From an uncultured Oscillibacter sp. (GTDB lineage: Bacteria > Bacillota > Clostridia > Oscillospirales > Oscillospiraceae): a DNA stretch of 35,153 nt. Positions 24,525 to 35,153 of the stretch are shown here, one piece after another (position 1 is the first letter of the stretch; each line of letters starts with the position of its first letter). Both the position numbers and the translations under genes were made by a program. Location: positions 1-35,153 of the forward strand of contig CANDBG010000026.1 in the NCBI GenBank assembly GCA_947382875.1. Reading direction: 5' to 3'. The notes below the pieces were generated by a model. That model did no database searches. It saw only the letters and a list, made by a program, of their open reading frames with translations, and was not told where the DNA came from.

Positions 24525-25760
24525 ATGAATAGATATATTTCATCGCTTATGGCACTTTGCCTGGCGTTTGCCCTTGTACTGCCTGTGGAAGCCAAGGAAG
24601 CTGAAAGCTTCCGTGATGTCCCCACCAACTACTGGGCCTATTCCCAGATTAACGAGATGGTCAACCAGGGCATCGTCGGCGGCTATAAGGACGGGACCTT
24701 CAAGCCCGAAGCACCGGTTTCCTATGGCGCCTTCTCCCTCATGCTGGCTAGAGTTTTCTACCCGAACGAATTAGCTGACGGCAGTATTGCTGTGGGTGAT
24801 GCCATCATGGAACAGCATGGCATTTCTAAGGATTCTGAGCGACAGAGAACCGCCACGGTTGGTCAAGCTATGTCTCGCGAGGATATGTCGTTGTATATGT
24901 ACAATATCCTGCAGGACCTGGGAATTCCTGTCCCCAATAGCAATGAATATAACCAGTCTAAAGCCAACATTATTGATTTCTTTGACATCAGTCCCTTTAA
25001 CCGGCAGGCCGTGCTCGTGTGCTATACACTTGGCCTGCTGGGCGGCCGGAGCGACGGAACCTTTGGGCCCAAAGCAAACATGACCCGGGCCCAGGCTGCG
25101 GTGGTGCTCAGCCGGCTGCAAAAGTACATCAGCGAGAATGGCGGGACTGCTACCCCCTCTACTCCTTCTACGCCCAGCACGCCCACTACCCCGACGACTC
25201 CCACTACTCCTGCTCCGGAAGTAACCGAACTTCCCGCGTTCAAGCTGCAGGATGGTGAGAATGTTGAGCAGATGATGAGTCGTATCAATGCCGCCACCCC
25301 TGCCTATCGCGCCGGTTATCTCTCTAATGGTAAGCCTATTACAGAGGAAAACATCAAGGAGATGCTGGAGCAGATGAAGGAGGATATGCCAGAAGGAACG
25401 AGGTGGGATGAGGATGGTATTTTCCACTATTCCTCTCCTAAATTTGGTGGAGGTGGCGGATGTAATGCCTTTGAGTATGCATGCTCTGACTACATCTTTG
25501 GTGAGGACGCTCCTATGACAAAGCATCAGAACTTTGACCAGCTGAAGGTTGGTGATGTGGTATATGTGAAAAACAGTGAGAATGGATATAGCCACGTAAT
25601 CGTTATCACGTCTATGACGAATCCTCGGGGGGCTGGGTGCTACTCTTATTGTAGTGGAAATTCAAGTGGACAAGTTTCATGGGAAGGATGGGGAAGGTTT
25701 GCAACACTTAATGAGCCGGTAATTGCTAACTCTGGCTCCTATGTTTATTCTCGATACTAA
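24525..25760 (+). CDS. Secreted SLH-domain protein with C-terminal Cys/His peptidase-like domain
   Basis: 411 aa, exported and probably held to the cell wall. Signal peptide at residues 1-23 (MNRYISSLMALCLAFALVLP, cleavage near VEA). SLH motifs: FRDVPTNYWAYSQINEMVNQ with GYKDGTFKPEAPVSY (about 29-75), and a later one with GLLGGRSDGTFGPKANMTRA (about 165-190). A Thr/Pro/Ser linker (about 205-230) follows. The C-terminal domain has GGGGGCNAFEYACSDYIFG and LKVGDVVYVKNSENGYSHVI, an NlpC/P60-CHAP-like Cys (C313) and His (H357) pair that suggests amidase or peptidase activity. AAAGGAG lies 11 nt before the ATG. The catalytic reading is inference from motif spacing. Confidence 0.88.
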   Translation: MNRYISSLMALCLAFALVLPVEAKEAESFRDVPTNYWAYSQINEMVNQGIVGGYKDGTFKPEAPVSYGAFSLMLARVFYPNELADGSIAVGDAIMEQHGISKDSERQRTATVGQAMSREDMSLYMYNILQDLGIPVPNSNEYNQSKANIIDFFDISPFNRQAVLVCYTLGLLGGRSDGTFGPKANMTRAQAAVVLSRLQKYISENGGTATPSTPSTPSTPTTPTTPTTPAPEVTELPAFKLQDGENVEQMMSRINAATPAYRAGYLSNGKPITEENIKEMLEQMKEDMPEGTRWDEDGIFHYSSPKFGGGGGCNAFEYACSDYIFGEDAPMTKHQNFDQLKVGDVVYVKNSENGYSHVIVITSMTNPRGAGCYSYCSGNSSGQVSWEGWGRFATLNEPVIANSGSYVYSRY

Positions 25761-25842
25761 AAAAAATCAGCCCCAGGGAATTAGCCGGGTGGTCGTAAAA
25801 CAGTATTACAACAAAATCTGAAAACCTCATGTTTTCAAGGAG

Positions 25843-25864
25843 CGGCGTGACTTCGGTCACGCCG
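25843..25864 (+). terminator. Terminator hairpin overlapping the recombinase stop
   Basis: 9-bp stem CGGCGTGAC / GTCACGCCG with a TTCG tetraloop, then TTTCCCTTTT on the plus strand. It can end the SLH transcript. The recombinase stop codon (25857-25859) is inside the right arm. Confidence 0.7.
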
Positions 25865-27494
25865 TTTCCCTTTTCATCAGTTCATTCAGAGGGATAAAGC
25901 CCATGCCGTCATACTTGATGTGGATGCTCTGGCGGCGCTTGCCGCTGGACTTGTCCGGGGCCTCTACATAGATGGCCTGCACAAGTTCCCGCAAGGCATA
26001 GGGGTCAAGGGTTTCAATGTCCACATACTTGTGCGCTTTCTGGATGAACTTTTCAATGTTGTCGTTCTGGCGTTCCTGTACCTCAATCTCCTGCCGCAGG
26101 CGGATGACCTCGGCCTCCAACTGCTTTTGCTCCGTCTCGTAGTTCTGGCTCAGCATATCGAACCGCTCATCGCTCAGCCGCCCGCTGGCGTTGTCCTCGT
26201 AAATCTTGACGAAGAGCCGCTTCAACTCGGCAATACGCTTCTCATCCCGACTGAACTGCTTACGGATGGTCTGCAACTTCTCCGCACTCTCCAGCTTCAT
26301 CTGCTGTTCCATGACTTCCCGGAAGTGGGCCTCGTACCGCAGGATATAGCCCATCACCAGCTGCATGTGCTTCAGCACCAGTTGCTCCAGGACCTTGACC
26401 CGGATGAAGTGACCGCCGCATTTCTCCCTGTGCTTCTTGTGCAGAGAGCAGTCAAAGAAGTCTTGAGCGAAGTCGCCATTGTTGGAAGAACCGTACTGCA
26501 TCTTGGAGCCACAGTCGGCGCAGTAGACCAGCCCGGAGAAGATACTGCTCCTGCCGGTGCGGGTCATGCGGTGGCGCTGCTGGCGGATCACCTGGACTTT
26601 CTCAAACACATCGTCCTCGATAATGCGCTCGTGAGTGTCGGGGAAGATGGCCTGCTTCTCGACCGGGTTCTCCCGCTGCTTCTTGTCCCAGATGGAGTTG
26701 GTGTAAGTCTTGAAGTTGACCGTGCAACCTGTGTATTCCCGCCGTTCCAGAATGTTGACAACGGAACTGTCACACCAACTGTAGGGATTTTCCGGGTCAG
26801 AGTGGGGCGTATTGCGGCCTTGCAGTTTCTTGTAGGCGGTGGGTGTCAGCACCTTGTCTGCTTTGAGCTGATTGGCGATTTGCTGGGGTCCCCGGCCCTC
26901 CATGCACATCTGAAAAATTCGCCTCACCACCTGAGCGGCCTCCGGGTCGATCAGCCAGTGCCTTGGATTGTCCGGGTCCTTCACATAACCGTAGGGAACA
27001 TTAACCGTCAGCGGTACACCGCGCTCACCCTTCGCTTTCTGAACCGCCCGAATTTTCCGGCTTGTATCTCGTGCAAAAAATTCGTTGAACCAGTTCTTTA
27101 TGCCTGCAAAATCGTTGTTGACGCTGTTGGGGTCTGCGCTGTCAAACCCGTCATTGATGGCGATGAACCGGACGCCATTCTGCGGGAAGATGAAGTTGGT
27201 GTAAAGCCCGGTCAGGGCGGAGTTGCGGCCCAGCCTTGAGAGGTCTTTCGTAAGGCAGACCGCCACGTTTCCCGCTTCGATTTCAGCCAGCATCGCTTGG
27301 AAGCCGGGGCGGTCGTATGTGACGCCGCTCACCCCATCGTCCACGAAGAAAACCGGATTGGGGAAGTGGTGGTCTTTCACATAGCTGAGCAAGATAGCCT
27401 TTTGATTCTCAATCGACAAGGACTCCCCAGCTCTCTCATCCTCCTGGGACAAACGGCAGTAACAGGCCGTGATTTTGTTCGTTGCTCCCGACAT
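25857..27494 (-). CDS. Large serine site-specific recombinase of the mobilizable element
   Basis: 545 aa, inferred to excise and integrate the element. The resolvase domain starts ITACYCRLSQEDERAGESLS with nucleophile S16, and has FFVDDGVSGVTYDRPGF and LTKDLSRLGRN. Next come the recombinase domain (VPYGYVKDP to about 300), a zinc ribbon (YCADCGSKM with CSLHKKHREKCGG), a long coiled coil (about 375-480) and a DUF4368-like end IHIKYDGMGFIPL. The family is TnpX-like. ATG 27494 is preferred because of its strong AAGGAGGA 8 nt upstream; a GTG at 27575 overlapping tnpW as GTGA would add 27 residues. Last gene of the mob operon; the element end is expected just beyond its stop. Confidence 0.94.
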   Translation of the reverse strand: MSGATNKITACYCRLSQEDERAGESLSIENQKAILLSYVKDHHFPNPVFFVDDGVSGVTYDRPGFQAMLAEIEAGNVAVCLTKDLSRLGRNSALTGLYTNFIFPQNGVRFIAINDGFDSADPNSVNNDFAGIKNWFNEFFARDTSRKIRAVQKAKGERGVPLTVNVPYGYVKDPDNPRHWLIDPEAAQVVRRIFQMCMEGRGPQQIANQLKADKVLTPTAYKKLQGRNTPHSDPENPYSWCDSSVVNILERREYTGCTVNFKTYTNSIWDKKQRENPVEKQAIFPDTHERIIEDDVFEKVQVIRQQRHRMTRTGRSSIFSGLVYCADCGSKMQYGSSNNGDFAQDFFDCSLHKKHREKCGGHFIRVKVLEQLVLKHMQLVMGYILRYEAHFREVMEQQMKLESAEKLQTIRKQFSRDEKRIAELKRLFVKIYEDNASGRLSDERFDMLSQNYETEQKQLEAEVIRLRQEIEVQERQNDNIEKFIQKAHKYVDIETLDPYALRELVQAIYVEAPDKSSGKRRQSIHIKYDGMGFIPLNELMKRETA

Positions 27495-27571
27495 TTCTGT
27501 CTCCTCCTTTTTCGGAGCAACTGTCAGTACAGGATTGGTTGCCTCCATATTAACATAACTTTCTGCGTTTG

Positions 27572-27787
27572 TCACCGGCCCGCCTCCATGTTTTCTGTGA
27601 ATTTCCTTGCGGCGATGCGCTCCAGCCGCCGGACGAAGTTTTCCGTCCCCTCGTAGCTACCCGTGACCGTGTAGACGGTGCCGCCGATTTCCTCCGTAAC
27701 GGTCAGCTCCGGTATCCAATAGGCGGACAGGTTCCGGACATGGATGCGCCCGGTCTCGTCAAAACAAAATCGGATTTCTTTCTCCAT
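27572..27787 (-). CDS. TnpW-family transposon-encoded protein
   Basis: 71 aa, resembling TnpW proteins of clostridial mobilizable transposons: a central GGTVYTVTGSYEG strand pair followed by a basic helix FVRRLERIAARKFTENM. Function unknown; always a small companion of the recombinase and relaxase. Start ATG 27787 with GGAG 10 nt upstream, 17 nt after the relaxase stop; its own stop overlaps a possible GTG start of the recombinase. The family assignment rests on pattern and position. Confidence 0.75.
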   Translation of the reverse strand: MEKEIRFCFDETGRIHVRNLSAYWIPELTVTEEIGGTVYTVTGSYEGTENFVRRLERIAARKFTENMEAGR

Positions 27788-27804
27788 TCATATCACGCTC
27801 CATT

Positions 27805-29277
27805 TCAAAGTTCGGTTTGATGTTTTCTGGTCTGCTGCTGACGCTGCTGGTCATGGATGGCGGTATCCACTTTGTATTGAATATCCCGCAGTTTCTTCAA
27901 ATCAGCATAGACGGGTTTCAGCTCAGCAGTCTCGGCGGCGTACTGCTCCATAAGCCGCTCCAATTCCGCCTGCCATTGCTTCGGGGTCAACTTTTTGCCG
28001 GGAAGTCCGGCGTTGTCCAGCTTGCGCTTCACGACGTAGAACTGCCTGATCTCGCTGTCATGTTCCGCCTGATATTTCTCCCGTTTCTTTCCAAAACCGC
28101 CCTTAGCGGGGATGGCGTCAACGATGGGCTTCAAGCGGGTGTAGTCCTCTGCAAGACGGATCAGGTCTTTCAATTTCTTCATCTGTGCCGACTTCGCCTT
28201 GATGGAATCGTTCAAATCAAACACCTGGTTACTCATAGCGGAAACAAATTCGTGTAGCTGGTCGATAGAGAAGATGCCCTTGGATTCCAGAAAAGAGAAG
28301 TCCTCCGTGTACCGCTTCAGGTTGCCTACCTTGGCTTTCTGGGAGTACGCCCCGGCGTTGCGGGCAGAGTAATACTGCGCCAGAGCCTGAGCCAAATCCG
28401 GAGTCTGCGCCGCGCTCAATTTCTCTTTGATCTCCGCCAGCCACTCCAGCAGACCGGCGATTTTTGTTTTGACGCTGCGGAGCATATCATTGGTGGCTTT
28501 GATCCAGCGGTTGAGGTCGCCCTTGTCGGTGCGGATGCTCCTGACCTCCATTTGCCGGACAGCGGGGCCTTCGTGGACGGTGGGCAACTGCTCTACGCCT
28601 TGACGCTCGTAGCTGCGATGATCGACACAGCACAAAAGGCCCTTTTCCTCAAAGCGGGCATTACACAAATCTGCCCATGCCCTGCGCCATTCCTCCAGCG
28701 TCTTCGGCCTGCCCCAGTCTGTGGTGGGGACTGCGTTGAACACATAGTTTCCTGCTTCGTCCCGAACACGGTTGCCGTTCTCGTCCAGCACATAGACCCG
28801 GTGCTGCTTGGCGTCCCACTCCCCGTTCTCTTTCAAAGGCCGGATGGGACACATGACATGAAAATGCGGATTGGGGATGCCGCCGTCCTCTTTGCCGGGC
28901 AAGTGGACAGCAAAATCGCAGATCATACCACGGCTGACAAACTGCTCCAACAAAAATTGCCTTGCAAGGGCGATGTTTTCCTCCAAGGAAAACTCGTTCT
29001 GCAAGGCAATGTCAAAACTGTATGCAAGCTGGGCTTTCGGATGTGGCTCCGCTTTCTCCACGGCATTCCACAGCGTCTGGCGGTCTGCGTATGACCGTGG
29101 GACGTGGGCGGGCAGCAGAATTTCGGAGTGGGCGATGCCGCCCTTGCGGGTGTAGTCACTGGCCTCGCCGTAGTAGTCGCTGAACAGCTTCTCCCCGGCA
29201 CGGTAGGCGGCAGAGGCGATGGCGGACTGCGCCGCACTCCGCTTGATCTGCGTTGCGTGGAAATGAAACAGGGCGAT
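27805..29277 (-). CDS. MobA/MobL (MOBQ) relaxase with non-canonical start
   Basis: Nicks oriT and pilots the DNA strand during mobilization by a helper conjugation system. About 490 aa. The N-terminal relaxase domain reads ALFHFHATQIKRSAAQSAIA, SAAYRAGEKLFSDYYGE, with Y25 as likely nicking Tyr, and metal-binding H138 and H140 in NPHFHVMCPIRPL. The C-terminal half is a coiled-coil/helical region (KQWQAELERLMEQYAAE). The conserved N-terminus has no ATG, GTG or TTG between its upstream in-frame stop (29284-29286) and a GTG at 29061, which would delete the active Tyr. I place the start at ATC 29277, 9 nt after AGGAGG where relatives would have ATG; CTG 29283 is the alternative but is only 3 nt from it. 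Confidence 0.88.
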   Translation of the reverse strand: MALFHFHATQIKRSAAQSAIASAAYRAGEKLFSDYYGEASDYTRKGGIAHSEILLPAHVPRSYADRQTLWNAVEKAEPHPKAQLAYSFDIALQNEFSLEENIALARQFLLEQFVSRGMICDFAVHLPGKEDGGIPNPHFHVMCPIRPLKENGEWDAKQHRVYVLDENGNRVRDEAGNYVFNAVPTTDWGRPKTLEEWRRAWADLCNARFEEKGLLCCVDHRSYERQGVEQLPTVHEGPAVRQMEVRSIRTDKGDLNRWIKATNDMLRSVKTKIAGLLEWLAEIKEKLSAAQTPDLAQALAQYYSARNAGAYSQKAKVGNLKRYTEDFSFLESKGIFSIDQLHEFVSAMSNQVFDLNDSIKAKSAQMKKLKDLIRLAEDYTRLKPIVDAIPAKGGFGKKREKYQAEHDSEIRQFYVVKRKLDNAGLPGKKLTPKQWQAELERLMEQYAAETAELKPVYADLKKLRDIQYKVDTAIHDQQRQQQTRKHQTEL

Positions 29278-29279
29278 GG

Positions 29280-29600
29280 TCAGTCACCTCCTGACCGCTC
29301 GGCGATATTGTGAGCGTTGACGGCCTCCATCACCATGCCCTTAACCTCCGGCATGGAGAAGATGCGCTCAGCGAGAGAGTAGAACTCAACCTCACCCAGC
29401 ACCCTTACCAGTGGCGACACGCTCTCGACTGCCGCCCCACGAGTAATAAGCCTGTGCGCTCTGGCAGTGCGCTCCCGCTTTTTGTAATACTGCTCCCGGT
29501 TGCACAGACGCTGGTACTTGTGCTGCTCCCGCATAAGCTGTTGTTCAGCTTCGACTTTCTCGGCTTCAAGCCTTTTGAGTTCCGGACTCGGTTGATACAT
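29280..29600 (-). CDS. DUF3847-family mobilization-associated protein
   Basis: 106 aa, recognised as DUF3847 by ELKRLEAEKVEAEQQLMREQ, HKYQRLCNREQYYKKRERTA and RAHRLITRGAAVES. It is basic and helical, probably DNA-binding; its constant place just before MobA/MobL suggests an oriT accessory role, comparable to MobC-like helpers, but this is unproven. Strong AAGGAGG 8 nt before ATG 29600. Its last codons contain the ribosome-binding site of the relaxase gene. Confidence 0.87.
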   Translation of the reverse strand: MYQPSPELKRLEAEKVEAEQQLMREQHKYQRLCNREQYYKKRERTARAHRLITRGAAVESVSPLVRVLGEVEFYSLAERIFSMPEVKGMVMEAVNAHNIAERSGGD

Positions 29601-29635
29601 TCAGATGGCCTCCTTCAAATTTTGATTAAGATAAG

Positions 29636-29667
29636 AAAACCGCCTGTCAGCATTGACAAGCGGTTTT
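29636..29667. promoter_or_regulatory. Hairpin upstream of DUF3847-mob operon
   Basis: Stem AAAACCGC-c-TGTC / GACA-a-GCGGTTTT around a short loop, 36 nt before the DUF3847 start. On the minus strand GCGGTTTTC follows, so it may attenuate transcription entering the mob operon, or be an accessory binding site of the transfer region. Confidence 0.5.
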
Positions 29668-29690
29668 GAGAAACTATGAAACTGGGGATA

Positions 29691-29725
29691 GCCGCGAAGC
29701 GGCGCAAGGGGCGGACAGCCCCTTG
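29691..29725. repeat. Two adjacent small inverted repeats in the transfer region
   Basis: GCCGC-gaa-GCGGC (29691-29703) and CAAGGGGC-ggaca-GCCCCTTG (29705-29725). Clustered stems of this kind are usual next to oriT of mobilizable elements. Confidence 0.6.
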
Positions 29726-29745
29726 TTTGGAACGCAGTGACGGAA

Positions 29746-29777
29746 AACGGCCCGGACTTTCAGAAGTCCGGGCCGTT
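29746..29777 (-). terminator. Terminator of the restriction-modification operon
   Basis: 14-bp perfect stem AACGGCCCGGACTT / AAGTCCGGGCCGTT with a 4-nt loop, followed on the minus strand by TTCCGTC directly after the TT of the stem (TTTTCC). It lies about 75 nt after the helicase stop and before the mob operon. Confidence 0.75.
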
Positions 29778-29790
29778 CAGCCTCGCAGAG

Positions 29791-29827
29791 CGCACATACG
29801 GGGGACACCCCGTATAGAAGTGCGCCA
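29791..29827. other. Candidate oriT with MOBQ-type nic region
   Basis: Inverted repeat ATACGGGG-gaca-CCCCGTAT (29796-29815), with outer CGCAC (29791-29795) able to pair with GTGCG (29820-29824), followed by AGAAGTGCGCCATT. RSF1010/R1162-type MOBQ origins have an inverted repeat just before a nic core AAGTGCG^CCCT, so the predicted cut is after G29824. It lies upstream of DUF3847 and the relaxase, the usual oriT place. The exact nick is inferred. Confidence 0.72.
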
Positions 29828-29852
29828 TTCCCAGGAATGGATTTTTGAATAG

Positions 29853-32800
29853 TCAGGACAAACCGCCGAAATGTTGATCTACCAGTTCGCCCAATGTTCC
29901 GGCCTTCGCCGCTTCCGCCGCGTCAGCCTGAACAAAATTGTGGGTGCTGTCCTTCAACTCCTCATCAAATCCCAGCATGTAGTTTGTGGCAATCAGATAG
30001 ATGATGCGGGTCGGGGCCATGCCGTAGACCTGCTTTTGCAGGATGTGGCGGGCGCGCTCTTTCTCATCGGGGAACGCCGCTTTCAGCCCCTCACTCCGGT
30101 AGAGCCGCTTGACGATCTCCGTGATGTAGAGGCCGGATTTCATATACAAATCGGCAAAGGTTTTATCCGGATCATCAAAGCAGCCCGGATTATTTTCCTC
30201 CAGCTGATCCACCATCATGGACACTACCCAGCGGGGCGTGAAAATCTGATTGGTCTTTTGCGGCGGGATGTAGTCAAAAATGTCCTCGTCCTGGCTTTCG
30301 TCAAAATAATCGGCCAACTGCTGTTTCTTCTTCCAAAATTCTTCCACAGAGTCGTTGAACACCACTTCATCAAAGAGATGCCCTGCAAAGTGTCGGCTTT
30401 CCCCGGTTTCCGGGTCAGCGTATTCGCCGCCGTCCCGCAGAAAGCGGAAATCAGCCATCGTAATGCCGGTCACTTCCAAAAACACATCTTCCTCGGTGTA
30501 GGCATCAAAATTTGCCAATGTCAGATTGCCATCGCCATAGGCCATGATGAAACTGGGGATGGTGCGGGAAAACCCCCGCAGGTGGGCGCGGACTTCCTCT
30601 TCCACAGACAGTTTCTCCTGCTCCGCCTTGTTCCGCTCCGCCTGCTCCACGATCTCCTTCGGCTTTTCCACAACAGTCTGCTGGACCGTCTCCTGCACCG
30701 TTTCCACGAAAGATTTCAGTGCGCTGTCCATCGCCGCGGTGTATTCCGTTTGAGCCTGTTCCGCCTCCTGAACAGTAGCGGCGGTCTGCTGTTTCCGTTC
30801 CAGTTCCGCCTGGGCGATGCGGGCCTGCTGTTCATAATCGCCCTGTATCTTCTGGAAGGTTCGGTCGATTTCCTGGTCTACCTGCTTCTCCAGACGGTTC
30901 TGCGCAGCCTTTCTCATCCCGTAGCCCTCAACGGTGGGGGCTACCACATTTTCCTTGATGTGCGCCTTGACCGTTTCCGTCAGCGTCCTGATACGCTGAT
31001 CCACTGTGTCAATGGAACCGCTCTCCGCCACGGCCTCCACCTGAGATTGGATATCCGGTGTAACGTCATAAATCTTAGGGCCAAACAAATCCTGCGTCCT
31101 GCCAATGATCGTTTCGTTTGGAATTTCCACCTCGCCGTTTTCGTCCACTGTCACCGTTTCCATGCCGTCCAGCCGCTTCGGGTCTGTCTTTTTGCCCTCC
31201 TCATGGGCGGGGGTCAGCTTCTCAACGATTTCCCGGACAACAGCGGGCGCGCCGAAAATATTGCTGATATTCTGGAACAGAAAGTTGGACATAAAGCCCC
31301 GCCGCACAACTTCCTGACTTTTCAGCCGCCGGGGGATGAACAGGACGGAAGCGGCATCCAGTTCCACCATCTGGCCCTCGCTGTCCTCGCCCAGAACCGG
31401 AAAGAAATTCAGCAGCCGTCGGATATTCTCTTTCCGGCCATCGGACGTGCCGCGCCCGCCCACGGTGTCGGCGGACAGGTTGTTGGCGAACTCGTCAAAA
31501 ATAATCAGCGTCCGGGCGGGGTCAAAGTCAAAGACGTAGGCCGTCTCCTTGCGGAATCGCTGTCCATCACGGGTCATGATGCAGGGGTTCTGCGCCCGGA
31601 AAGCCGCCTGCATATAAGAGGACGGGCTTTTCATGTTGCACAGCATAAGAACGCCGCTCCACTCCGGAATGGTGACACCCACAGTAAGCTGGCCCACGGT
31701 CAGGGTGATGGTCTTGTCGTAATTGGCAATAGCTGCCTTCACCTGATCAAATGCCTTTGCCGCCTGGGTGTCATCGTCCTCACTGCGGCCGTCCCCCGCC
31801 GCCACGACCACCTTGTAATCCCGGAAAACCTCGTTCTCCCGCAGCAGCTTTTCCAACGCCTTGGCGCTGGCCACCCGGTTTAGATACCACATGGTGTGGG
31901 ACAGCTCCTGCCGCAATTCCGGGGTGGAGAACGGATATTTTTCCTGGGTGGTCAGGGCATGGAGAAACTTTTTGATCTCGTCTTCATGGACAAATTTCCC
32001 GCTTTCATTGGTGGAAAAAAACTCGTTGAGGTCAAAGGTGTAGTCCACCACCCCGTCCTCGCCGGACAGGTCCAGACCCTTTTCGATCTTCTCCCGGATC
32101 ATGCCGGACAGCTGATAGGTGAACATGGCAAGCCGGGGCAGCGTCTCGTAAGGGTTGCCATCCTCGCCGCTCCATCCGGCCTTGGCCTCCTGTTCGTCAG
32201 CGTAGGACCAGTTAAAGATCTGCTCCCTGGAAAACTGCTCGCTGGCAAGCTGCTTGAAGGGCGTGCCGGATAAATACAGCGTGTGCTTCCGCTTGATATT
32301 GCGAAAGGCCCGCTCGGTCTTCATGGTGTCCACGCCCTCCTGGGCCTCGTCCACGATCAGCAGGTCAAATTCCAATTCGCTCATCCAGCGCAGCTTGTCG
32401 TACTGCCCGCCAAAGTAGACGGAACCCTTCAAGCCTTGCAGGGACTCGAATGCAATCATGCTCTTGGGAAATTCGTCCTCCCTGTGCCGCATGGCCGAAA
32501 GGAAATCCTCCCGCGAGAGCACGCCGGGCTTGTCCTTCAATGCGTCTGTGTCGGAGACAAAGGAAAACTCGCCCCGCCAGCCGATGAATTTGAAGAAATC
32601 ATCCGCCCAGGAGTTGGCGATGCTGGGCCGGTTGGTGACGATCAGCACCTTGGTAAAGCCCATCTGCCGGATCAGGTCATAGGAAGTCAGCGTCTTGCCG
32701 AACCGGGGCTTTGCGTTCCAGAGAAATTCCTCTCCGCCGCTTTCAAAGTACGCCTTTGTCATAGCGACCGCTTCCCGCTGTTCCTTCCGGAGTTCATAGG

Positions 32801-33179
32801 TCAGCCGATCTTCACTGACTGCCGTCAACTCCCGCCGGGAAAAGGTGTCGAAATGCTGGTGGGACGTTGGCCCGTCCACATGGAACCACTCTGTGCCGGG
32901 GGTGCGCTCCACACCCGCCTGGGACTCCAGAAAGGCGTGGAAATCGTGGTCGGTGAAATACTCCCCGGAGCCGTCCTTGAACATGGCGTTGTCCTGCCAA
33001 GCCAGCACATACTGGATGCCGGCGGTGTGGGTCTGCTGCTTGATGCGTTGGGCGACTGTCTGCTTTTCGGTGTAGCCGATTTTCGTCCAGCCCTCGTGGT
33101 AGAAAACGCCGGGGGTGTTGTAGGCGTAGATCATGGGGACGACACGGGAGAAAGATTGGATTTTTGCCGATTCCATCAT
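29853..33179 (-). CDS. GIY-YIG-like / SF2 helicase protein with degenerate methyltransferase C-terminus
   Basis: 1108 aa. Residues about 15-110 look like a GIY-YIG/T5orf172 nuclease: IYAY (17-20), WTKIGYTEKQTVAQRI (31-46, with R45) and GSGEYF (E73). An SF2 helicase core follows: Walker A NAKPRFGKT (155-163), DEAQ box LLIVDEAQEG (273-282), SGTPFK (304-309), and a motif VI-like QAAFRAQNP. A long charged helical region (about 730-890, Gln/Glu-rich) links to a C-terminal part with QIFTPRWVV (978-986) and FADLYMKSGLYITE (1008-1021), which matches the FTP and motif I positions of N6-adenine methylases but lacks the CGxG core and any NPPY. ATG 33179 overlaps the methylase stop by 4 bp. Likely the cutting/translocating subunit of a restriction system. 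Confidence 0.85.
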   Translation of the reverse strand: MMESAKIQSFSRVVPMIYAYNTPGVFYHEGWTKIGYTEKQTVAQRIKQQTHTAGIQYVLAWQDNAMFKDGSGEYFTDHDFHAFLESQAGVERTPGTEWFHVDGPTSHQHFDTFSRRELTAVSEDRLTYELRKEQREAVAMTKAYFESGGEEFLWNAKPRFGKTLTSYDLIRQMGFTKVLIVTNRPSIANSWADDFFKFIGWRGEFSFVSDTDALKDKPGVLSREDFLSAMRHREDEFPKSMIAFESLQGLKGSVYFGGQYDKLRWMSELEFDLLIVDEAQEGVDTMKTERAFRNIKRKHTLYLSGTPFKQLASEQFSREQIFNWSYADEQEAKAGWSGEDGNPYETLPRLAMFTYQLSGMIREKIEKGLDLSGEDGVVDYTFDLNEFFSTNESGKFVHEDEIKKFLHALTTQEKYPFSTPELRQELSHTMWYLNRVASAKALEKLLRENEVFRDYKVVVAAGDGRSEDDDTQAAKAFDQVKAAIANYDKTITLTVGQLTVGVTIPEWSGVLMLCNMKSPSSYMQAAFRAQNPCIMTRDGQRFRKETAYVFDFDPARTLIIFDEFANNLSADTVGGRGTSDGRKENIRRLLNFFPVLGEDSEGQMVELDAASVLFIPRRLKSQEVVRRGFMSNFLFQNISNIFGAPAVVREIVEKLTPAHEEGKKTDPKRLDGMETVTVDENGEVEIPNETIIGRTQDLFGPKIYDVTPDIQSQVEAVAESGSIDTVDQRIRTLTETVKAHIKENVVAPTVEGYGMRKAAQNRLEKQVDQEIDRTFQKIQGDYEQQARIAQAELERKQQTAATVQEAEQAQTEYTAAMDSALKSFVETVQETVQQTVVEKPKEIVEQAERNKAEQEKLSVEEEVRAHLRGFSRTIPSFIMAYGDGNLTLANFDAYTEEDVFLEVTGITMADFRFLRDGGEYADPETGESRHFAGHLFDEVVFNDSVEEFWKKKQQLADYFDESQDEDIFDYIPPQKTNQIFTPRWVVSMMVDQLEENNPGCFDDPDKTFADLYMKSGLYITEIVKRLYRSEGLKAAFPDEKERARHILQKQVYGMAPTRIIYLIATNYMLGFDEELKDSTHNFVQADAAEAAKAGTLGELVDQHFGGLS

Positions 33180-35153
33180 GCCATCTCCTTTGCTCGTTTT
33201 CCAGATTTCCTTAAATTATTAACAGTAGACTCAACGTGCTGGATTTCTTTTTTTGTAAGGTCGAGCAAATTGTATAGTTGCTCGTCCAAATTTTCACTAA
33301 AATCAATCATTTGATTGCTGCCTGAATAATCCGTTAAGTCAGGTACACGTTTCCCCAATGATGTCAATGCCTCATCTGTCATAAGAAACAGAAATCTGAC
33401 AATGTATGTTTGAACATACTTGAAAAAATTTTGGGCCTCTTCGTAGGTCTTAAACGATGCCAATGCAACACGCGCACGACCAAAGGCGGAATGATTGTCG
33501 ATTATTTCCAATTGATTATCTCTCTTTTGACCACCTGCATTTGCACTGGAAACAACTACCTGCCATTCATCAATGAACTGTGTATTGCTGGTTATAATAT
33601 TTCTGTTTGCGACAAACCATTTGGCACGTCCGGCTTTTCCCGCTTTGTCATTGGTAAACAATTTGATTTCGGTAGAATAATCAGGAATTTCTACATCCTC
33701 TAATGGTTTGACTACACCAGGATTATCTTGCACAAAGCTACTTTCAATGCCAAACAAGGAACGAGGTAAAATTCTATCATGGAGATATGTCAGATGAAAT
33801 CTCTGCACAAATAGGTCCGCTTTTTGGGTCACGACCAAATCGTTCGGATTTAGTGGTATCAATTCCACGCCGGGACATTTCATGGTAACACATACAGTTT
33901 CTTCGCCCTTGCGATAAATATATTCAAATTCTTTTTCACTTTTCTTCATATCTTTGATTACAATTCCGATTCCGTCGGCAATCGCAACCCCTGTAAAAAC
34001 ATCGTTTGAATTGGGATAAAAGATAACCTTTTTCAATCTTGGGTCATTTATCTGCTGTAGTCCAAACTCTTCCATCCCTTTGCCTGATCTATGTATCCAA
34101 CGCCCGGCCGGATAAATTAAGACCGTTGCCTGCGCTGCCACTTTATCGGCCCCAAGTTGGTAATAGTGGAATATGTTTTTTCTGGGAGCTTGTCCGTTCG
34201 TCTTGGACACTTCTTGGACAGTTTCCTCTTGATATGGCGGATTTCCAATCACAAAATCAAACTTCATCGCACGTTTCCCCCTTACTGGCAAGGCCAAATA
34301 TTCCACGCTCCCGCCGCCTGTCCAGTTGCGGACAAGGCAACGGGGCTGTTTGTTTTCTGGATCAACTTCGGACGCTCCGCCTAAAAATTCAAATAAGTTG
34401 AATTGCTGAAATTCTTCTTCCGCTGTCCCATAGGGGATCGTCCCCCGCAGGCCATCCATCTGCCAGATGTTCCAGACGATCACGGTGGTCAACCGCTCAT
34501 ATTCGGAAACGGTCGGCTTTCGTTTCCATCGCTCCCAAAGGTATTCCTCAAAGGTCATCAGCAGATTGACGCGGGAGATCAGCAGGTTGTCCCCCTGAAA
34601 CTCATACCCATAAGTTGCCCAAAACGCCCGGAACGCCCATTTCAGCCACTCTTCTTCGGTTTGGGTGTTCTCGTTCACCGCCCGCAGTTTCCGATCCAGC
34701 AGCCCAACGCGGTCGGGAATGGGGATATATTCGCCCGTCTCCACATCGTAGCGGCTGACCAGAAACGGGGCCTCCCCGCAGGTGATCTCCAGCACCCGGC
34801 TGTCCACATACTTCTGCCAATTCGCCTTTTTGCTCCGCATTTCATCGGCATAGCCACACATTTTCCGGCAGACCCAAAGGGGCGTAAAAACTTCGCCATG
34901 CTGCCGCGTCCGGCTGAATTGCTGCTCCATCTCTTTCCGGGCGCGGGTCTTGATGATGCCGGAGTTGGGGCCGGTAATCAACTCCGGCGTGATCTCCTCG
35001 TTCCGCTCGTACCGCAGACCGAGAGCGGAATAGGCATCCGCAGCCCACATGATACGGCGTTTGGTGGTCTTGTCCGCCAGCAGCTTGTCCAGAAGGCCCA
35101 TCGCCTGGATTTTCAGTATGTCGTCCTGGATGTTAATGACCAAGGCGTGCCTC
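33176..35153 (-). CDS. Eco57I-like N6-adenine DNA methyltransferase (5' end beyond window)
   Basis: At least 655 aa; the frame stays open to the window edge, the first possible start is TTG 35143, and the true start is probably outside. Predicted SAM-dependent adenine methylation for self-protection. Seen: GEVFTPLWVCRKM (83-95), a motif I variant VLEITCGEAPFL (117-128), and motif IV FDFVIGNPPYQEE (295-307, catalytic NPPY). The C-terminal 330 residues, including YLHDRILPRSLFG and FKTYEEAQNFFKYVQT, probably hold the target-recognition region, since no separate specificity gene is visible. It overlaps the helicase gene by 4 bp (ATGA) and so is co-translated with it. Family membership is confident, the biological role (restriction against foreign DNA) is inferred. 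Confidence 0.88.
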   Translation of the reverse strand, partial: RHALVINIQDDILKIQAMGLLDKLLADKTTKRRIMWAADAYSALGLRYERNEEITPELITGPNSGIIKTRARKEMEQQFSRTRQHGEVFTPLWVCRKMCGYADEMRSKKANWQKYVDSRVLEITCGEAPFLVSRYDVETGEYIPIPDRVGLLDRKLRAVNENTQTEEEWLKWAFRAFWATYGYEFQGDNLLISRVNLLMTFEEYLWERWKRKPTVSEYERLTTVIVWNIWQMDGLRGTIPYGTAEEEFQQFNLFEFLGGASEVDPENKQPRCLVRNWTGGGSVEYLALPVRGKRAMKFDFVIGNPPYQEETVQEVSKTNGQAPRKNIFHYYQLGADKVAAQATVLIYPAGRWIHRSGKGMEEFGLQQINDPRLKKVIFYPNSNDVFTGVAIADGIGIVIKDMKKSEKEFEYIYRKGEETVCVTMKCPGVELIPLNPNDLVVTQKADLFVQRFHLTYLHDRILPRSLFGIESSFVQDNPGVVKPLEDVEIPDYSTEIKLFTNDKAGKAGRAKWFVANRNIITSNTQFIDEWQVVVSSANAGGQKRDNQLEIIDNHSAFGRARVALASFKTYEEAQNFFKYVQTYIVRFLFLMTDEALTSLGKRVPDLTDYSGSNQMIDFSENLDEQLYNLLDLTKKEIQHVESTVNNLRKSGKRAKEMA

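Follow-up and report, generated by a model that had tools for sequence, protein, structure and literature searches.

A DrdVI-type restriction-modification operon with its second methylase apparently divided between two proteins, carried by a mobilizable element of an uncultured Oscillibacter

The window, i.e., the whole 35,153-nucleotide stretch of DNA analysed here, which is the whole of contig C26 of an uncultured Oscillibacter sp., carries at one end two overlapping genes, M and R, that appear to form a real, intact-looking member of a named family of restriction-modification (R-M) systems, the DrdVI family, in a rearranged form. Comparison of the predicted proteins, module by module, shows that the second methylase of this family, M2, is split just before the catalytic motif NPPY (motif IV): its front half, hereafter RX, makes the tail of R, and its back half, hereafter MC, is fused behind MN, the part of M that resembles the first methylase, M1. 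Three points seem to be new, namely the cut of M2 across two proteins, the behaviour of MC as a cassette and a conserved internal start before MC; in the open-licence literature searched, neither the RX/MC cut nor an internal start has turned up for the DrdVI family. The coordinates of all features are collected in Table 1.

An earlier note on this DNA had claimed two overlapping genes that encode, on two polypeptides, a GIY-YIG nuclease head, a superfamily 2 (SF2) motor with a DEAQ box and an N6-methylase with NPPY, and these claims held. Both frames are open and overlap by 4 nt (ATGA). The TTG start of M at 35143, 10 bases from the contig end, aligns with the start of its relatives, which is ATG in loci L030 and L046 and GTG in L045 and L047. 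Pfam recognized ResIII in R (8e-11, above cut-off) and the Eco57I methylase domain in M (7e-14). Against a cut-off of 22.3 bits, MUG113 scored 19 on the head of R when the whole protein was searched and 22.5 bits on the head alone. Among 34 heads of the family that were scanned, T5orf172 matched 30 and MUG113 matched 25 (E up to 0.1), with best E values of 3e-8 and 5e-7, respectively; both models belong to the GIY-YIG clan. Residues Y18, K33-x-G35, R45, H81 and E97 of the head are invariant across 38 aligned R proteins, as are the Walker A, DE box, GTP and QAAFR motifs of the motor, and NPPY shows no variation among 37 M proteins. The predicted head, with its catalytic Tyr, Arg and Glu present, is accepted at the profile level as a member of the GIY-YIG superfamily. 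A PDB profile match between the GIY head and the fimbrial anchor 5nfi (E 0.0013) was set aside.

The division of M2 can be followed along the methylase motifs. MN reads EVFTPLWV...LEITCGEAPFL...YGYEFQGD and is followed, from residue 293 of M, by MKFDFVIGNPPYQ and a variable back half (MC). The last ~150 amino acids (aa) of R, i.e., RX, read FTPRWVV...FADLYMKSGLYITEIV...QVYGMAPT; motif X is followed in them by a degenerate motif I and by the motif II position, and the chain ends before NPPY. An hhalign comparison supports the homology of MN and RX over motifs X and I (E 2e-7), the only part of the alignment that was used, as the MN profile included some MC residues. In natural RX-MC chains, the motifs follow each other from X to NPPY as in a complete methylase, and a profile built from RX and MC rows aligned over this whole stretch with 7lo5, an adenine methylase of solved structure (E 0.0016). 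The reading of M as a methylase, made in the earlier note, stands in so far as the NPPY half is present in M; M is not one ordinary methylase, and the last ~150 aa of R are a methylase front half. The M2 proteins of L113 (8621-10237) and L148 (2822-4441) have a Cys-pair insert between the front half and NPPY, which is not present at the RX-MC junction of L057, L060, L078 and L079.

Locus L148 is the plasmid pDrdVI of Deinococcus wulumuqiensis NEB 479. M1-2.DrdVI is a type IIG system that recognizes GCAGCC and methylates one adenine to N6-methyladenine (m6A) (PMC6430315), and another paper describes DrdVI with a fused GIY-YIG endonuclease and translocase (PMC4996451); from these papers and the gene order, we read the three pDrdVI genes as M1, M2 and R. 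In blastp searches, residues 15-640 of R matched the GIY-helicase gene of pDrdVI (2e-83), whereas residues 956-1064 matched positions 7-119 of its second methylase gene (4e-12); MC matched the same second gene at 201-292 (4e-11) and 403-537 (1e-8), and MN the first methylase gene (6e-12). Because the matches follow the modules one by one, the window system is assigned to the DrdVI family with M2 cut at NPPY. All modules are homologous, MN corresponding to M1, RX-MC to M2 and GIY-YIG-motor to R. However, RX and MC form one chain in DrdVI and its R is devoid of RX, whereas in the window RX sits on R and MC is fused to MN; both methylase genes of the DrdVI type are matched by the window, but M2 itself is in two pieces. 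The proposal that the operon fits no named restriction type had to be abandoned, as its kinship with DrdVI, a type IIG split-methylase system, gives it a clear assignment, and the candidate of an unassigned new defence system was ruled out by this assignment. A PADLOC check also spoke against it, existing models matching the parts (MTase_II twice, for MN and MC separately, and REase_MTase_IIG).

Two other described systems are among the closest to that of the window. M1-M2.MaeIV of the archaeon Methanococcus aeolicus recognizes GCACY with m6A on one strand and is placed in a "split methylase/RM" family, DrdVI-like (PMC10113651); it is likened to the window family by this description only. Btr188ORF1790/1760 of Bibersteinia trehalosi is described as fragmented and inactive, and the consulted portion of the text does not describe a split between MN-MC and RX (PMC4996451).

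The survey of relatives covered 75 genome loci and further plasmid, phage-record and genome loci, in which the GIY, motor, coupler, RX, MN and MC modules recur in at least six covalent layouts. Layouts were counted over 102 distinct loci, those cut by a contig end being entered as partial. With a slash between chains, the commonest is MN-MC / GIY-motor-RX (42 loci), followed by MN / MC / GIY-motor-RX (13 loci, plus variants), MN / GIY-motor-RX-MC and MN / GIY-motor-RX / MC (4 loci each), MN / RX-MC / GIY-motor (2 loci) and MN / GIY-motor / RX-MC (1 locus), the rest being partial or variant layouts. MN / RX-MC / GIY-motor is under-counted here, as short duplicates of some genome loci were entered, and it is also present in L126, L127, L128, L130, L135 and L139. 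In the loci examined for gene order, wherever MN and R are both complete, MN is the first gene, except in L158 where it is the last. Single-chain relatives also exist (e.g., L060, L078, and L154).

Some loci depart from these layouts. L073 (6037-13312) has a diverged gene for a single GIY-motor-MC chain immediately upstream of another gene, of the GIY-motor-RX type, which looks like two systems with one MN in common. The Corynebacterium plasmid L151 has kept its M1 and M2 genes, with a Tn3 transposase in place of the GIY-motor gene. Broken frames were seen in MC of L027, between GIY and motor in L063, and as an in-frame TGA in R of L098 and L099.

The two front halves, MN and RX, differ in the motifs that bind S-adenosylmethionine (SAM). 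MN keeps motif I in 98 of 100 sequences, with a pattern accepting Phe, Tyr or Leu (54 of 100 with Phe only), and the motif II acid in 93 of 100, and NPP[YFW] was found in none of 54 stand-alone MN and as no extra copy in 46 fused MN. In RX, motif I was matched in 96 of 101 sequences, with Lys in 91 and Thr in 5; the window RX has DLYMKSG, with Lys in the SAM-binding loop (K-S/T-G). In active members of this enzyme class, that place of motif I is usually taken by Gly or by a small residue. No acid was found at the motif II position among the listed RX strings. RX looks SAM-dead because of the Lys or Thr in motif I and the lack of a motif II acid in place. Judged from these motifs, MN looks to be the half that keeps the SAM motifs, MC the one that has the catalytic motif, and RX a SAM-dead-looking copy of a front half, whose conserved Lys might stand in for the charge of the cofactor.

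We lean, with slightly more confidence than doubt, towards a rearranged DrdVI-type, ATP-driven m6A R-M system in which MC would be shared by MN, as the methylase, and by RX, on the nuclease-motor. Together, MN and MC would methylate a short asymmetric site on one of its strands, and RX would hold another MC on the nuclease-motor, so that the restriction complex would have the same target. At an unmethylated site, the motor would translocate or remodel DNA and the GIY-YIG domain would cut, as suggested by related systems. Several points weigh against this sharing of MC. The RX motif I pattern demanded Ser, Thr or Lys, and a canonical Gly might hide in the 5 unmatched sequences of 101, although Lys was read in three of them on inspection, a contig end truncates another and the last was not seen. 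In five RX motif II strings, of the FEMSHN type, a Glu stands two residues before the acid position. RX and MC are a single chain in several layouts, including DrdVI, which fits RX as the catalytic partner of MC, and MN has a stretch of its own after motif III, ahead of MC. Finally, work on DrdVI and MaeIV names M1 and M2 jointly, and the half that supplies SAM is not told in the accessible text of these papers (PMC6430315; PMC10113651).

These points lead to the strongest rival explanation, according to which RX-MC is the actual methylase and MN an accessory partner devoid of NPPY, as in heterodimeric methylases with one inactive subunit; M and R of the window would then have to assemble before any methylation. 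We consider it unlikely, although it deserves real weight: RX-MC is one chain in the DrdVI, Rhizobium, phage-record and single-chain layouts, its profile aligns through NPPY of 7lo5, and few parts of R are as conserved as RX (mean pairwise identity 0.75 vs. 0.69 for the motor). On the contrary, the missing motif II acid and the Lys or Thr in motif I of RX (96/101), when MN keeps both motifs, and the frequency of the MN-MC fusion, the commonest layout (42/102 loci), argue against this rival.

The earlier note had also claimed that the system is devoid of a specificity part. This did not stand, since M has a part that behaves like a specificity cassette: its second half, the variation of which is independent of MN and R. 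Pairwise identities were compared over the 36 loci that have an M gene of the MN-MC fusion type: those of MN and RX correlate with those of the motor (r 0.93 and 0.91, respectively), those of the NPPY part of MC (r 0.11) and of the rest of MC (r 0.03) hardly do. Similarly, the window and L030 share 92-96% identity in the R modules and 80% in MN, but only 39% in the NPPY part of MC and 23% in the rest of it, and their DNA alignment breaks at 34220 and resumes at 33190. The GC content of MC in the window is 40%, compared to 56% for MN and R. As MC diverges independently of the motor and the window-L030 alignment breaks over MC, NPPY and the variable region must have been exchanged together. These comparisons of sequences show MC to evolve as an exchangeable cassette, and we infer that its variable region reads the target.

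MC is preceded by a conserved internal start. Free MC genes start with MKFDxxIGNPPY. The 65 fused genes examined all have a start codon at the corresponding position, 8 codons before NPPY, which is ATG in the 37 MN-MC genes, while the 28 RX-MC genes have 25 ATG, 2 TTG and 1 GTG there. With a threshold of -6 or below for the anti-Shine-Dalgarno (SD) duplex energy, an SD site precedes it in 32 of 37 MN-MC and 23 of 28 RX-MC genes (55/65 in total), and in 13/16 and 12/15, respectively, after thinning below 60% identity; the true starts of free MC genes have a mean energy of -8.55 (n = 17). The internal SD is stronger than expected from synonymous codons in 31/37 MN-MC and 27/28 RX-MC genes, an excess over resampled synonymous codons that remains in the thinned sets of 16 and 15 sequences (p 0.001 and 0.0002). 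In comparison, -6 or below is reached by 6% of 453 and 11% of 198 further in-frame Met codons in these genes. When 11 plasmid genes were added later, 10 internal sites were scored and 7 of them reached -6, vs. 15 of 183 other in-frame Met. The internal ATG of DrdVI M2, before MQFDVIIGNPPY, also has an SD (-6.4).

As an unrelated control, 56 NPP[YF] frames were found in genome loci with PF07669, 52 of which are not DrdVI-like. Among these 52 Eco57I methylases, a start codon stands at the NPPY-8 codon in 1 and within one or two codons of it in 4, and none has an SD at that position; the 4 DrdVI-like frames of the set, one of which (L193) repeats L135, all have both start and SD. Some caution is needed, as 10 of the 65 fused genes miss -6 (seven with a weak SD and three, the Bacteroidota L036, L038 and L039, without any) and as the sequences are related, so that the counts overstate independence and the thinned ones are fairer. 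Bacteroidota rarely use SD sequences.

Free MC is probably also made from the fused genes by internal initiation, as these start sites suggest. The start codon and its SD could on the contrary be a relic of a recent gene fusion or a side effect of the peptide, no free MC being made from fused genes, an explanation that we hold to be rather improbable. Many loci do have free MC genes with the same start, which the loss of one stop codon would fuse, and Met may be favoured in the protein at this place. However, a purely structural Met at M293 is weakened by the GTG (L078) or TTG (L154, L155) codons that stand where the residue is not Met, the SD beats the synonymous expectation in 58 of 65 genes, and the pattern is common to MN-MC and RX-MC fusions from several phyla, while the 52 unrelated methylases are devoid of it.

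With internal initiation, the window would produce MN-MC as the methylase, free MC, and R loaded with free MC. Every layout could supply both complexes because MC has either an internal start or its own gene: fused MN-MC would give internal MC to R, fused RX-MC would give it to MN, and a free MC gene would serve both. That MC from every layout is shared by a live SAM-binding half (MN) and a SAM-dead mimic (RX) is a tentative proposal, to which we give a little less than even credit. If true, restriction and modification would read the target via the same physical subunit, and one swap of the cassette would change both.

A further explanation is that the copy in the window is decayed or silent and protects nothing. 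This is very unlikely: M has a TTG start and some relatives are broken or incomplete (L027, L098, L099, and L151), but both frames are intact with their motifs present, and RX is 96-98% identical to that of L030, L045, L046 and L047, which are the closest relatives.

The absence of fit to the gene layouts of types I, III and ISP, claimed in the earlier note, was confirmed. No set of HsdR, HsdM and an HsdS with two target recognition domains (TRDs) was found next to M and R, as far as the element lies within the window. Type III systems have a complete Mod and a Res with a C-terminal PD-(D/E)XK nuclease, whereas R has a GIY-YIG head and ends in RX; type ISP enzymes are one chain with an Mrr-type nuclease, whereas the window has two chains and a GIY-YIG head. 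Even the strict type IIG, with nuclease and methylase in a single chain, differs from the two chains of the window. Neither R, the R profile nor the RX-MC profile matched a type ISP enzyme among solved chains, in which ISP chains are assumed to be included, and membership of type ISP or III was rejected on this lack of sequence match. A type III or ISP system with a changed nuclease is likewise hardly probable, because the ResIII-like motor, the expected one-strand m6A and the nuclease-motor-methylase-TRD order of single-chain relatives, which recalls type ISP (PMC4666363), are opposed by this missing match, by an N-terminal GIY-YIG in place of Mrr or of a C-terminal PD-(D/E)XK, and by an extra MN gene without counterpart.

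Other known systems present partial likenesses, given here as far as the accessible parts of their sources describe them. The type ISP enzymes LlaGI and LlaBIII share the nuclease-motor-coupler-methylase-TRD order of the single-chain relatives, but have an Mrr nuclease, one chain and no MN partner, and no sequence match was found (PMC4872093). The OspHL35III group combines, as in the window, a GIY-YIG endonuclease and a translocase with a separate methylase-TRD, type IIG-like, but as three proteins with an MmeI-like methylase and no methylase split described, and is likened by description only (Blow et al., 2016; PMC4752239). An internal translation start that yields a shorter subunit from a restriction gene is described for the long and short forms of McrB; the proteins are however unrelated, and the short form of McrB is the AAA+ domain, not a specificity or catalytic half (PMC12707154).

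The M-R operon is, on the evidence of shared DNA, the cargo of a mobilizable serine-recombinase element. A block at 25788-35134 is common to the window, L045 and L046 (82% nt identity), and to L030 with 84% (80% for MN, and MC excepted); it contains M, R, the DUF3847 gene, a MobA/MobL relaxase, a 71-aa open reading frame (ORF) and a large serine recombinase. The end on the recombinase side is identical in the window, L030, L045 and L046, but the sequence past it differs. The element is therefore inserted at different places, in agreement with the horizontal spread proposed in the earlier note. Upstream in L046 lies a matching inverted end (2 mismatches of 18, ~15.6 kb away); a weak match was found in L030 (5/18) and none in L045 or L047; in the window, the other end lies beyond the contig. 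Close or distant relatives of the system were present in 8 of 398 genomes sampled from the phylum (E up to 1e-20) and in 18 of 300 sampled from the same family (E up to 1e-50), the genome of the window being included.

Table 1. Features of the R-M operon and of the mobile element that carries it, in window coordinates.
Feature	Position	Strand	Description
M gene	33176..35143	-	655 aa, TTG start; MN-MC fusion, M1.DrdVI-like part plus M2.DrdVI back half
MN module	34268..35143	-	M 1-292; methylase front half; motif X EVFTP, motif I EITCGEAPF, motif II acid YGYE; without NPPY
MC module	33176..34267	-	M 293-655; catalytic NPPY half plus presumed target recognition; GC 0.40
NPPY (motif IV)	34232..34243	-	M residues 301-304
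Shine-Dalgarno-like AAGGGGG before internal ATG	34277..34283	-	Anti-SD energy -11.2; synonymous expectation -5.2, p 0.007
Conserved internal ATG	34265..34267	-	M293, MKFDFVIGNPPYQ; start point of free MC genes in relatives
R gene	29853..33179	-	1108 aa; GIY-YIG - SF2 motor - coupler - RX
GIY-YIG nuclease head	32844..33146	-	T5orf172/MUG113-type; R ~12-112
SF2 helicase-like motor	31260..32810	-	R ~124-640; PRFGKT, DEAQ, SGTP, QAAFR
Conserved coupler segment	30345..30596	-	R ~862-945
RX module	29856..30314	-	R 956-1108; M2.DrdVI front half; FTP, DLYMKSG, YGMAPT; without NPPY
DUF3847 gene of mobile element	29280..29600	-	
MobA/MobL relaxase	27805..29061	-	Listed ORF; conserved frame reaches up to 29283
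Large serine recombinase	25857..27575	-	Resolvase, Recombinase, Zn ribbon, DUF4368
Mobile element end	25788..25806	-	Same end sequence, different flanks in L030, L045, L046

The relaxase frame presents no ATG, GTG or TTG ahead of 29061, though relaxase-like sequence extends further up, to a CTG that immediately follows an in-frame stop close to where the DUF3847 gene ends; L030, L045 and L046 show the same pattern, and a CTG start or translational coupling is possible. Just outside the right end of the element ends a gene for an S-layer-homology protein (24525-25760, + strand). The genome of the window has two further matches to Eco57I-type methylases on another contig, C74 (L159). Among relatives, L079 is an Enterococcus faecalis plasmid with a single-chain member near optrA and erm genes, and full sets of modules occur on the phage-labelled records L116 and L117, the latter being unverified phage-like and having its R modules on two frames.

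DrdVI-like systems occur in many phyla, and in the literature searched they come up only in brief notes on methylomes. What is one enzyme in pieces is misread by automatic annotation as two "type II methyltransferases" and a "type IIG enzyme". Should the internal start be real, a subunit would be concealed in fused gene models and carried unnoticed in clones and in methylome assignments. By the cassette rule, an exchange at NPPY should alter what both activities recognize, which suggests an easy read-out of the specificity code. If the proposed sharing is true, a live and a dead half with one common partner would represent a new way to tie modification to restriction.

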